From Cryobacterium sp. PAMC25264 (GTDB taxonomy: Bacteria; Actinomycetota; Actinomycetes; Actinomycetales; Microbacteriaceae), in NCBI RefSeq assembly GCF_019443325.1, contig NZ_CP080383.1, positions 1,054,001 through 1,118,000 of the forward strand: 64,000 bases of DNA, read 5' to 3'. Positions 13,339 through 59,920 of this stretch are shown here, piece after piece. The notes beneath the pieces were generated by a model that did no database searches, had not been told where the DNA came from, and saw only the letters and a program-made list of their open reading frames with translations. The first letter of the stretch is position 1; each line of letters starts with the position of its first letter. The position numbers and the translations under genes were made by a program.

Positions 13339-13468
13339 CGAGTTGCCGCACAAGTCCCTCTCCGGGCTCCCGAGGGGGCACTATGCGGCACATCGCCGAG
13401 TCAGTTTCACGCGACGTGCCGGATAGGACCTTTTCCGGGCTCGTGAGGGGGCCATCTGCGGCACGTCG
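13339..13468. repeat. Pair of 57-bp palindromes (units C1 and C2)
   Basis: Two units of exactly 57 bp, 13339-13395 and 13412-13468, separated by 16 bp (73-bp period). Each is a 24-bp arm, 9-bp loop, 24-bp arm. The outer arms read CGAGTTGCCGCA / TGCGGCACATCG in C1 and CGACGTGCCGG / TGCGGCACGTCG in C2; the inner stems are pyrimidine-rich on the left and GAGGGGGC on the right. They share their architecture with the units at 15317-15530, 43621-43750 and 47613-47669. Confidence 0.85.
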
Positions 13469-13500
13469 GCGAATTCGGGCGAGCCCACGCCAACTTGCGG

Positions 13501-13516
13501 ATACCCCATGGGGTAT
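13501..13516. promoter_or_regulatory. CsoR/CstR-type operator before the CoA-disulfide reductase gene
   Basis: A perfect 16-bp palindrome, ATACCCCATGGGGTAT, of the G-tract type bound by CsoR/CstR repressors. It is 14 bp before the start codon and overlaps a possible -10 (TATAGC, 13514-13519), so binding would block transcription. The same 16 bp, with identical flanks over 21 bp (12-20 bp shown by GGATACCCC and GGGGTATAGC), occurs at 46627-46642, and a variant at 57756-57771. No CsoR/CstR gene lies in the window. Confidence 0.8.
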
Positions 13517-13530
13517 AGCAAGATGGAGTC

Positions 13531-15206
13531 ATGACTCAGAATCGGTACATCATCGTCGGGGGCGTCGCCGGGGGAATGTCGGCAGCCACCCGCCTTCGTC
13601 GGCTCGATGAGAACGCCCGGATCACGGTGTTCGAACGCGGCGGCCACGTGTCGTTCGCCAACTGCGGGCTGCCGTACTACCTCGGCGGTGTCATCGAAGA
13701 GCGCTCCAGTCTGCTGTTGCAGACGCCGGACTCGCTCGGCGCCCGGTTCAACCTCGACGTGCGCGTGCGCACCGAGGTGATCGGCATCGACAGCGCGGCC
13801 AAGACGGTGCGGGTGCGCGACCTCGGCACGGGGGAGGAGTCGACCGAACCGTATGACGCCTTGGTGCTCTCGCCCGGCGCCTCACCCGTGCGCCCGCCGC
13901 TTCCCGGCGGCGAGCGGATGCTCACCCTGCGTGACATCGATGACGTCGATGCGGCCATGTCCGCCCTCGAGGTGGCGCCCCAGAGCGCCCTCGTGATCGG
14001 CGCCGGCTTCATCGGCCTCGAGATGGTGGAGAACCTCGTAAACCTTGGCCTCGAGGTCACCCTTGTCGAGCTCGGCGACCAGGTATTGCCGCCGCTTGAC
14101 CCCGAGATGGCCGGTCCCGTCGCCGACCGGCTCCGGGCCGCCGGCGTCAGTGTGCGCCTGGGTACCCAGGTCGCCGAAATCGGCAAGGACACCGCCACCC
14201 TCAGCGACGGCAGCGTCGTCGCCGCCGACTTCGTGCTCGCCGCCATCGGGGTGCGGCCCGACACCGCCCTCGCCAAGGCCGCCGGCCTCACGATCGGGCA
14301 ACGCGGCGGCATCGCGGTGGACGACCAGCTGCGCACGAGCGCCCCCGACATCTACGCCATCGGCGACGCCGTCGAGAAGACCGACGCGATCTCCGGCGAG
14401 CAGCGTCTGGTGGCCCTCGCCGGCCTGGCCAACCGCCACGGCCGCCTGGTCGCCGACGTCATCACCGGAAAGACCATCCGGTGCGCCCGGCCCTCGGCAC
14501 CGCCGTGGTGGGCATGATGGGCCTCACCATTGCCGCCACCGGGTGGAACGAGAAGCTGTTGCGCGCGCGCGGCCGCGCCATCCGGGTGTTCCACACGCAT
14601 CCCGCCTCCCACACCGGCTACTACCCTGGCGCAGAGTCGATGGCGCTCAAGCTCGTCGTCGACGCCGAGACCGACGCCATCCTCGGTGCCCAGGGTGTGG
14701 GCGGGGACGGCGTGGACAAGCGCATCGATGTGATCGCGACGGCCATGGCCGGCGGCATCACCGCATCCGAACTCGCCGACCTCGAACTTGCCTACGCGCC
14801 GCAGTTCTCCTCGGCCAAAGACCCGGTGAACATGCTCGGTTATGTGGCGCTCAACGCCGCAGAGGGACTCACCCCGTCGGTGCAGTGGCACGAACTCGAG
14901 GCCGCCCGCGCGGCCGGCGCCACGCTGGTGGATGTGCGCACGGCGGGGGAGTATGCCGAGGCTGCGATTCCCGGCTCGGTCAACATCCCGCTCGACGACA
15001 TCCGCGCCCGCCAGGCCGAGCTGCCCGAGGGTCGCCTGATCGTGCACTGCAAGGTGGGCCAGCGCGGCCACACCGCCGTGCGGCTGCTCGCTCAGCTGGG
15101 CCGCGACGCCGTCAACCTCGACGGCGGCTACCTCACCTGGGCCGCCGGCACGGATGCGGCTCGTACCGACCTCGAACGCGCCGATGCAGCTCTGCAGTCC
15201 GTCTGA
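13531..15206 (+). pseudogene. CoA-disulfide reductase-like FAD oxidoreductase with rhodanese domain, frame broken by one missing base
   Basis: Pyridine-nucleotide-disulfide oxidoreductase of the CoADR/NADH-oxidase group, about 558 residues, with a C-terminal rhodanese domain. FAD motif YIIVGGVAGGMSAATRLRR; single redox Cys about residue 45 in SFANCGLPYY; NAD motif VIGAGFIGLEMVENL; rhodanese loop HCKVGQRGHTA with the active Cys. Such fusions reduce CoA persulfide or disulfide and handle sulfane sulfur. The frame breaks at 14478: one more C in ACCATCC gives TIPVRPALGTAVVG and joins both halves. A CsoR/CstR-type palindrome overlaps the promoter, fitting persulfide-induced expression. A longer paralogue lies at 55192-57711. 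Confidence 0.88.
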
Positions 15207-15316
15207 GTCGCCGCTCCGGCCCACCAAAAGAGTCGGCCGGCACCCTGGTCCGCGACCAGCCTGAGCCGTCATCCTGCCCGCTGAGCCACCGTCCCGCACA
15301 GCGCCGGCAGAATCAA

Positions 15317-15530
15317 CCACGTGCCGCAAAGTTCTCCTTCAGCGTGTTGGAAGGGCCTTGTGCGGCAACTCGGAGAGCGTCCCTCTCCGATGGTGGCGGG
15401 TGACTTGCCAGTTGCGGCCCCTTCAATGCATCTCATTGGGCACCGACTGGCAACTCACAGCGTTGTGTTGCGCTGAGTTGCCAGTTGAGGCCCATTCCGG
15501 ATGAGTGAAGGGGCCTGAACTGGCAACTCA
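15317..15530. repeat. Cluster of three 57-bp palindromes (units C3, A1, A2)
   Basis: The 342 bp between two convergent genes hold three 57-bp units and nothing else recognisable: C3 (15317-15373, outer arm GTGCCGCA), A1 (15401-15457) and A2 (15474-15530), the latter two starting 73 bp apart. A1 and A2 have outer arms TGACTTGCCAGTT / TGAGTTGCCAGTT and end in ACTGGCAACTCA. In A2 the arms match at 22 of 24 positions around a 9-bp loop; the right inner arm of A1 is degenerate. No T-tract follows the stems. Confidence 0.85.
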
Positions 15531-21666: not shown

Positions 21667-21729
21667 TCGCGAGCTGTGACTTAAGCCCCGAAATCATCCC
21701 GATTTCGGGGCTTTGCTCACAGTTCGCGG
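21667..21729. repeat. 63-bp palindrome (unit B1)
   Basis: Outer arms TCGCGAGCTGTGA (21667-21679) and TCACAGTTCGCGG (21717-21729) enclose an inner stem AAGCCCCGAAATC / GATTTCGGGGCTT. Same length and plan as the units at 55128-55190 and 59858-59920. It could act as a terminator for the deaminase gene, though there is no long U-tract. Confidence 0.8.
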
Positions 21730-35940: not shown

Positions 35941-36057
35941 CCCGGCCGCCGGTCGCGACCCATCCGCTGGTCGCACCCCATTCGTTGGTCGTGACCAATA
36001 CGTTGATCGAGCTTGTCGAGATCCCGTGAGTCGAACGTGTTGGCGACGACGCTCACC

Positions 36058-36150
36058 GGGTCTCGACGGGCTCGACCGACGAGGTGGGCGCGAGCGCAGA
36101 TCCTCTCACGGGGTCTCGACGGGCTCGACCGACGAGGTGGGCGCGAGCGC
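36058..36150. repeat. Two perfect 40-bp direct repeats with 53-bp period
   Basis: The 40 bases at 36058-36097 recur exactly at 36111-36150; each begins GGGTCTCGACGGGCTCGACC and ends GCGCGAGCGC. Degenerate copies of the GTCTCGACGGGCTCGAC core continue before (36007-36022) and after (36163-36205). This kind of TCGAC-rich intergenic repeat is common in Microbacteriaceae chromosomes. It fills most of the 400-bp gap between the lipoprotein and the ClpC-like gene. Confidence 0.85.
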
Positions 36151-43599: not shown

Positions 43600-43620
43600 C
43601 CCACGCGACCGCGAACGTTC

Positions 43621-43750
43621 TGACTTGCCACTTGGGGCCCCTTCAGCGCGCACGAAGGGGCTTGAACTGGCAAGTCACCCGTGCAGACCCTGCTGACTTG
43701 CCACTTGGAGCCCACTCGACACGCACGAAGGGGCTTGAACTGGCAAGTCA
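43621..43750. repeat. Pair of 57-bp palindromes (units A3 and A4)
   Basis: Units 43621-43677 and 43694-43750, 73 bp apart, each 24-9-24. Both run from TGACTTGCCACTTG to AACTGGCAAGTCA with GAAGGGGC on the right inner arm; A3 pairs this with GCCCCTTC. The 16-bp spacer differs from that of the 15.4-kb pair while the distance is the same. The pair fills the gap between convergent helR and tetR. Confidence 0.9.
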
Positions 43751-43788
43751 CCCGTGCGGGTGTTGTGTGCGGGGCCGGCTCGTCAGGC

Positions 43789-47612: not shown

Positions 47613-47669
47613 CGACATGCAGCGAAGTGCCCCTTCCGGTGAGCTGAAGGGGCGCTTTGCGGCATGTCG
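47613..47669. repeat. Single 57-bp palindrome (unit C4)
   Basis: Arms CGACATGCAGCGAAGTGCCC... (47613-47636) and its near complement (47646-47669, ending TTTGCGGCATGTCG) around a 9-bp loop; inner stem GCCCCTTC / GAAGGGGC. It lies in the 349-bp gap between convergent nnrE and the gene ending at 47923. I see nothing else in that gap. Confidence 0.85.
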
Positions 47670-55127: not shown

Positions 55128-55190
55128 CCGCGAACCGTGAGGAAAGCCCCGAAAATCGGGGATTTTCGGGGCTCAGCTCACAGTTCGCGG
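55128..55190. repeat. 63-bp palindrome (unit B2), possible bidirectional terminator
   Basis: Outer arms CCGCGAACCGTGA (55128-55140) and TCACAGTTCGCGG (55178-55190); inner perfect 13-bp stem AGCCCCGAAAATC / GATTTTCGGGGCT (55145-55173). It fills the gap between two convergent stops (55124 and 55192). Related to 21667-21729 and 59858-59920. Confidence 0.88.
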
Positions 55191-59857: not shown

Positions 59858-59920
59858 CCGCGAACTGTGAGAAAAGCCCCAGATTTCGCCCATTTTGGGG
59901 GCTTAAGTCACAGTTCGCGG
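59858..59920. repeat. 63-bp palindrome (unit B3)
   Basis: Outer arms CCGCGAACTGTGA (59858-59870) and TCACAGTTCGCGG (59908-59920) are perfectly complementary; the inner stem AAAGCCCCAGATTT / TTTTGGGGGCTT is imperfect. It starts 6 bp after the APC permease stop and ends 10 bp before the TAGGTT box of the next gene. Confidence 0.88.

Follow-up and report, generated by a model that had tools for sequence, protein, structure and literature searches.

The subject of this report is a set of palindromes in a 64-kb stretch, hereafter the window, of the Cryobacterium sp. PAMC25264 genome (NZ_CP080383.1, positions 1,054,001 to 1,118,000; the genome is a single contig of 4.06 Mb). Among named database matches, those nearest to one protein of this genome come from Cryobacterium, with C. 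lactosi at 96%. We describe the palindromes together with the three things that genome comparison establishes about them, namely the tie of their families to nuclease genes, the geometry of their half-sites, and a joint change of their letters in a sister species. Eight units, all given without strand, belong to the family that we call B. Two form a pair with a 73-bp period at 13339..13395 (57 bp, two 24-bp arms about a 9-bp centre, 17 of 24 positions paired) and 13412..13468. A degenerate palindrome at 15317..15372 (24-8-24, 56 bp, 14/24 pairs) is followed by one at 15401..15457 and, after a 16-bp spacer, by the latter's partner at 15474..15530 (22/24 pairs). The third pair, at 43621..43677 and 43694..43750, starts 21 bp past the end of a UvrD-type helicase gene, and a single palindrome with TGCMGC-type arms lies at 47613..47669.

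A sequence-only reading had listed these eight units as each exactly 57 bp long, and three pairs of them as sharing a 73-bp period. The period is indeed exact at 13339/13412, 15401/15474 and 43621/43694, and seven of the units have the length, with 17-22 of 24 arm positions paired; the unit at 15317, 84 bp start to start from that at 15401, does not. Absent from that list are three further 57-bp palindromes, members of a sister family that we call A, whose half-site is CGAACTGTGASTTAAGCMCC. They lie 5 bp past the upstream gene (21670..21726, no strand assigned), in the gap of two convergent genes, which the palindrome fills at 6 and 4 bp from their ends (55131..55187, likewise), and between a gene end and a LigD-primase gene, which A palindromes precede in relatives as well (59861..59917, likewise). 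Counted as 24-9-24 structures with at least 17 of 24 pairs and YGA...TCR ends, the window holds 10 palindromes, the three of family A included, whereas none of 30 first-order Markov shuffles holds any. No Rfam family reaches its gathering score within the window. Segments 43613-43684 and 43686-43757 are 88% identical, which gives the 43621/43694 pair the look of a tandem copy. A helical phase among the less common spacings (84 = 73+11) would rest on two or three cases and is not used as evidence.

Half-site geometry

Across the genome, A and B behave as two related families with a common register. The half-site of B is YGASTTGCCASTTGAGGCCC, plus a TGCCGCA subfamily, with C and G equally frequent at position 4, and a whole-genome profile search gives at least 150 matches for A and at least 150 for B. 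Spacing was read one arm at a time in 864 kb (the window and 40 further stretches). In this sample, 24 facing pairs of B half-sites have a 9-bp gap and 4 an 8-bp gap, successive B palindromes are separated by 16 bp in 12 cases and otherwise by seven scattered gaps (28 twice, 30, 49 twice, 79 and 91), and A palindromes measure 57 bp in 20 instances of 21 and 56 bp in one; these 21 suggest about a hundred A units genome-wide. Such dyads contain 42/46 of the A half-sites and 54/62 of those of B. In the fetched parts of the genome, 14 of the 25 B arrays with at least three half-sites run exactly 24-9-24-16-24-9-24, or 130 bp. When the outer 10 bp alone are fixed, 94 of 101 A-type units, from relatives as well as from this genome, have a length of exactly 57 bp, a count to be read with the fact that part of these loci had been fetched with a 57-position model. 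The proposal of a genome-wide palindrome of fixed length and spacing, similar to repetitive extragenic palindromes (REPs), is borne out.

The 9-bp centre is free in its letters and fixed in its length. Within A (35 units, this genome) no inter-arm correlation at variable positions goes beyond chance (lowest p 0.13 over 24 positions), nor does any within the main B subfamily, B1 (41 units; lowest p 0.05 over 24 positions), and arm pairing in A, at 84.8%, compares with 85.5 ± 0.8 for shuffled partners. The arms do covary when B is taken as a whole, an effect largely gone within B1, and they covary between different families, partly through selection, the units having been chosen for pairing. Since the letters of the centre are free, its length fixed and the arms independent, two 24-bp half-sites read in duplex DNA fit better than a hairpin. 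The sequence-only reading had looked to compensatory arm changes: there are none within A and none beyond chance in B1, which counts against the hairpin reading and leaves the element itself standing. Its alternative, a structured signal in RNA or single-stranded DNA, is improbable as the conserved feature, given arms that vary independently inside a family.

In relatives, the sequence changes and the geometry stays. The A model matches 18 of 149 relatives, all of the same genus. Of 57 Cryobacterium genomes, 12 are rich in both A and B (at least 9 matches each, strands counted), and by two proteins these are also the 12 nearest to this genome; the remaining genomes give 0 to 7 matches. When YGA...TCR palindromes are counted de novo by length, 57 bp is the exact peak for this genome (35, next 7), its sister species G023 (11, next 5), C. 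glucosi, G033 (10, next 3), and, among named loci, those from other genera (7, of which two lie inside genes; next 3). Here, too, reading one arm at a time gives 57 bp, in 5/5 and 4/4 units of two C. glucosi families. Families of 56 or 58 bp also exist (5/5 at 56 bp in G063, 6/7 at 58 bp in G215). Within the family, a structure model from 30 units has matches at E ≤ 0.001 in 111 of 199 genomes, and in 59 of 85 genera. The 30 loci fetched, one per genome with this one included, begin with YGA and end with TCR, differ in their letters, and mostly have near-perfect arms; the best matches elsewhere were ranked by the structure model, which favours matched arms, and arm matching is accordingly not used as evidence. 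For 20 of the 29 placeable loci, a gene 3' end is found no more than 30 bp away. Locus L400 is the same copy as L382.

Bracketed nuclease genes

Among the genes adjoining these 30 palindromes, two families recur in three loci. One is membrane-transporter-like by our own reading; the other, a nuclease family carrying DUF559 and/or REase_MTES_1575 (in a larger set of 42, 27 and 31 respectively), is bracketed by palindromes in all three. A profile built from the three nucleases finds, in 15 genomes, 46 close homologs (E < 1e-40, one a seed) and 25 weaker ones. Palindromes stand on both sides of 30 of the 46 close homologs, on one side of 6 and on neither side of 10, as against 4 of 237 random genes; the 15 genomes were mostly selected for many palindromes, and the bracketing rate is the rate for such genomes. 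The two brackets of a gene are alike and private to that gene. In this genome, one paralog is bracketed by A (C1:2485264-2486172), a second by B pairs (C1:137959-138711), and a third, at C1:2213120, is unbracketed; the single C. glucosi gene has a palindrome on one side. Most of these nuclease genes stand in a cassette of about 1.1 kb. Its first palindrome lies 53-141 bp before the gene (median 67, n=29), and the second follows the gene after -26 to 86 bp (median 9, n=25). Start codons are our own calls, and the closest database relatives of the A-cognate protein have 302 aa, equal to its own called length. Of 15 dispersed families, 11 match a bracket of their own genome at 17 or more of 20 positions and better than in any other genome. 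The 57-bp family TGAGGTGTCGCATATCGACG of C. glucosi (L289, L293 and L297) is a possible orphan, its genome having yielded no nuclease to match.

The protein, of some 300 aa, is predicted to fuse an AbiEi-type DNA-binding part (winged helix and C-terminal domain) to a Vsr/I-Bth0305I-type nuclease (DUF559). The structural assignment comes from VIA-align, Foldseek alone giving no match below E 0.001; mitoribosomal and FASTKD4 chains likewise match the predicted nuclease part, as fold relatives. NCBIfam has no usable name for the family, whose relatives are labelled "hypothetical", "DUF559 domain-containing" or "endonuclease domain-containing" in databases. AbiEi itself binds two 23-bp inverted repeats. 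The sequence-only reading had suggested a search for a matching REP-associated tyrosine transposase (RAYT). A matching enzyme gene does exist, but in place of a tyrosine transposase it encodes a nuclease of DUF559/Vsr type joined to an AbiEi-type part. We consider it likely that this AbiEi-Vsr/DUF559 family has the palindromes as its cognate DNA sites, in a system like that of REPINs (REP doublets forming hairpins) but run by an unrelated nuclease.

The association reaches well beyond the genus. Within the order, the protein is found at E ≤ 1e-30 in 194 of 297 genomes, and in 61 of 94 genera. Further order-level genes have a 20-mer with at least 17 matches common to both flanks in 24 of 28 cases, as against 1 of 55 mismatched pairs. 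Many of these flanks are without the YGA form and differ in length, YGA forms standing on both sides in 9 of 30. For the weaker paralogs, the 57-bp type is found in 0 of the 24 fetched (25 found); their palindromes are of another build, mostly 58-72 bp (flanks of L466-L489, for example L472, L477, L480, L484 and L487; also L026:13013), and these paralogs probably form a second class with other palindromes. Palindromes of 40 bp, with a core like those of L467, L468 and L470, are dispersed in the genome.

Shifted letters and rival readings

For 22 A sites, the same gene end was sought in three relatives, a script taking the 57-bp forms and the rest being judged by eye. In the sister species, 19 of these gene ends were found, 13 with a 57-bp A palindrome; in G007, 10 of 16 have one, plus one of 55 bp; and in G011, 1 of 15 has an A palindrome, plus two that are altered. 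The arms in the sister species have nearly all moved from CGAACTGTGA to CGAGCCGTGA: arm position 6 is C in 40/40 there vs T in 59/70 here, and arm position 4 is G in 35/40 there vs A in 62/70 here. Genome GC is 68.5% here and 68.0% in the sister species. Most of the sites are kept, and nearly every arm has changed alike, which calls for a trans-acting factor. The bracket of the sister-species nuclease largely follows the shift of the dispersed sites, with C at position 6 in 3 of four arms and T in none.

How the system might work can be sketched. One monomer would read one 24-bp half-site in duplex DNA, two monomers would sit on a 57-bp palindrome and four on a 130-bp pair, and the protein would bind dispersed and bracketing sites alike. 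The upstream bracket copy may autoregulate the nuclease gene, nuclease activity may spread or keep the palindromes, and any use of the copies as terminators or insulators would perhaps be secondary. With confidence slightly above even, we propose that this amounts to a second, independently evolved route to REP-like palindromes, in which a self-bracketing AbiEi-Vsr nuclease would read two or four half-sites of fixed spacing and drive their copying or repair-mediated spread, private pairs across the order would drift and be rewritten together at many fixed sites, and the weaker paralogs would supply a second class.

Several observations weigh against this interpretation. Mobility, the binding of protein to site and cleavage are predictions; no target-site duplication is seen, and most of the compared A sites in the sister species and G007 are inherited in place. 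Ten of the 46 close homologs lack brackets, the third paralog of this genome included, and four of the 15 dispersed families (those of G291 and G178 and g1 and g2 of C. glucosi) have no matching bracket. The weaker paralogs, planned as a negative control, share other flank sequence left and right (18/24 vs 5/47 mismatched) and are thus not a clean one. The named Cryobacterium loci outside the clade are without a 57-bp peak (3 at 57, 5 at 59 and 4 at 83), and a small B subfamily, B2 (13 units), does have arm correlation at positions 12 and 16 (p 0.02 and 0.04).

The chief rival accepts the tie of protein to site and takes the system for a domesticated regulator, an AbiEi-like repressor or insulator with a vestigial or unused nuclease, whose palindromes would form a non-spreading regulon at gene ends as terminator roadblocks or topological insulators. 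That the sites are largely inherited in place suits it, as does their position: by our simple gene calling, 49 of 60 A palindromes have a gene 3' end no more than 30 bp away, and in 16 the gene is called as ending inside the palindrome, at its TGA or TAA. For B the figure is 19/108. The palindromes as a whole are often at gene ends, in line with the sequence-only reading. The upstream copy, 53-141 bp ahead of the start codon, is operator-like, and AbiEi autoregulates through inverted repeats. An unused nuclease sits poorly, however, with the invariance of E200, D233, H250 and D260 in 37/37 proteins, a repressor has no need of a downstream bracket at a median of 9 bp past the stop codon, and the several private families per genome and the differing palindromes at one gene end in relatives resemble element turnover. 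We regard this rival as possible, if distinctly less than evenly so.

Plain bidirectional intrinsic terminators, with shared sequence incidental, would account for the gene-end position and its convergent bias (A: 31 convergent, 26 tandem, 2 divergent), and the AAGCCCC...GGGGCTT core looks the part. Yet stem pairing is not conserved, the arms of A and the main B subfamily being without covariation; mismatches in transcript orientation in tandem contexts show no clear wobble preference (G.T 35 vs A.C 25); the length is exact despite the free sequence of the 9-bp centre; and the sequence matches the palindromes around one gene. This explanation is very unlikely. Slightly less probable still are miniature inverted-repeat transposable elements belonging to a conventional DDE transposon that has these repeats at its ends, a reading to which the multiple copies and the resemblance of half-sites to 24-bp terminal inverted repeats lend some appeal. 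No target-site duplication is found among 57 A and 103 B units (for k=3 to 10, matches are no more frequent than in shuffled data), a 2-bp CG match at the A flanks being part of A's conserved flank; the gene bracketed by palindromes is a nuclease; and no autonomous DDE element ending in these half-sites was noticed in the sampled 864 kb. The sole clear long-range facing pair noticed there (1.5 kb) is a transposase-like insertion with its own ends in the centre of an A palindrome (L045:9759-11259; 433-aa open reading frame, 8-bp duplication GTTTTTGG), probably of ISL3 type by its ends and duplication. Classical REPs or REPINs moved by a RAYT, an HUH tyrosine transposase, would likewise be dispersed, extragenic inverted doublets of conserved spacing with a private repeat per enzyme gene (PMC3116915), but are hardly credible here, given that Y1_Tnp is not found in the genome (PF01797 has no match at E ≤ 0.001, and 5/14 control genomes match), that the ends are YGA...TCR without a GTAG tag, that A has no hairpin covariation, and that the predicted enzyme fold is unrelated.

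Some side observations concern individual sites. At the same helicase gene end (window 43600-43750 vs L095-L100 and L132), the number and subfamily of B-type palindromes differ among close relatives, with none recognised in L132 and a remnant in L095; content thus turns over while place is kept. Upstream of LigD-primase (L220-L231), an A palindrome lies just upstream in 7 of nine plus-strand loci, being shortened in L230 and lacking in L231. Three different kinds of gene adjoin it on the far side, a pattern that would suit recombination using the palindrome as a joint. Another palindromic repeat, with TCTCGACAAGCTCGACC-like cores, is found in this genome and relatives (window 36001-36081, L034:15559-15652, L098, L118, L132 and L133) and occupies two gene ends that bear an A palindrome in a relative. 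A gene resembling CoA-disulfide reductase, at 13531-15206 of the window, is broken by a frame change and occupies two overlapping frames, the redox part at 13531-14517 and the dimerisation and rhodanese parts at 14481-15206.

Comparison with known systems

REP-like palindromes are widespread bacterial repeats, and the RAYT transposase, which is thought to spread or keep REPINs, is to our knowledge their one known engine. Here an unrelated, uncharacterised DUF559 nuclease family is tied to REP-like palindromes across many genera, which gives DUF559 proteins a function to pursue. The natural specificity pairs, each a protein and a half-site of about 20 bp, are a source for a recognition code of long DNA sites, and the joint change of letters at many fixed sites, with a trans-acting factor, makes the co-evolution of site and protein directly testable.

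The likeness to REPIN-RAYT systems (REPtrons) is one of organisation. In both there are many dispersed extragenic inverted repeats of one sequence, an enzyme gene (here of another kind) bracketed by the dispersed repeat, and several private repeat/enzyme pairs per genome whose sequences co-evolve. The enzyme here is, by structural prediction, an AbiEi-Vsr fusion nuclease, whereas RAYT is an HUH tyrosine transposase, and the repeats here consist of 24-bp half-sites at fixed 9- and 16-bp spacing, without covariation within A and B1. The repeat end of REPIN-RAYT systems carries a GTAG (or CGTC) tag, according to PMC3733652; that tag is absent here, the alignments ending YGA...TCR. Also cited are PMC3943268, PMC7319586 and PMC8266576.

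With the AbiEi antitoxin and the Rv2827c operators of type IV toxin-antitoxin systems, the present protein shares the predicted fold of its N-terminal two thirds (winged helix-turn-helix and C-terminal domain) and has inverted repeats of about 23 bp upstream of its own gene, as a single pair or two pairs, to which binding is here predicted. It differs in its fused nuclease domain and in sites that lie also downstream of the gene and dispersed through the genome. The cognate toxin of AbiEi is DUF1814, encoded in the same operon, and the cassette has no room for a toxin gene, the downstream palindrome beginning within the -26 to 86 bp seen in 25 cassettes. I-Bth0305I, an EDxHD homing endonuclease, has a Vsr-like catalytic domain such as is predicted here; the bracketed gene, however, stands between two whole sites and does not interrupt its site, and many sites persist in the genome.

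The bacterial interspersed mosaic elements (BIMEs) and REPs of enterobacteria also place alternating inverted palindromic units at gene ends, and differ in length, half-site, enzyme and recognition. The DNA uptake sequence dialects of Neisseria are gene-end inverted repeats that shift in concert between species, and differ in being short single boxes without a bracketing nuclease. We found no prior description of such a palindrome/DUF559 system in the open-access literature, and one elsewhere is possible. Because it fails the defining tests of the REPIN-RAYT family, whose way of working it resembles, and differs from both homing endonucleases and AbiE modules, we file it, with respect to that open-access literature, as a kind of its own.
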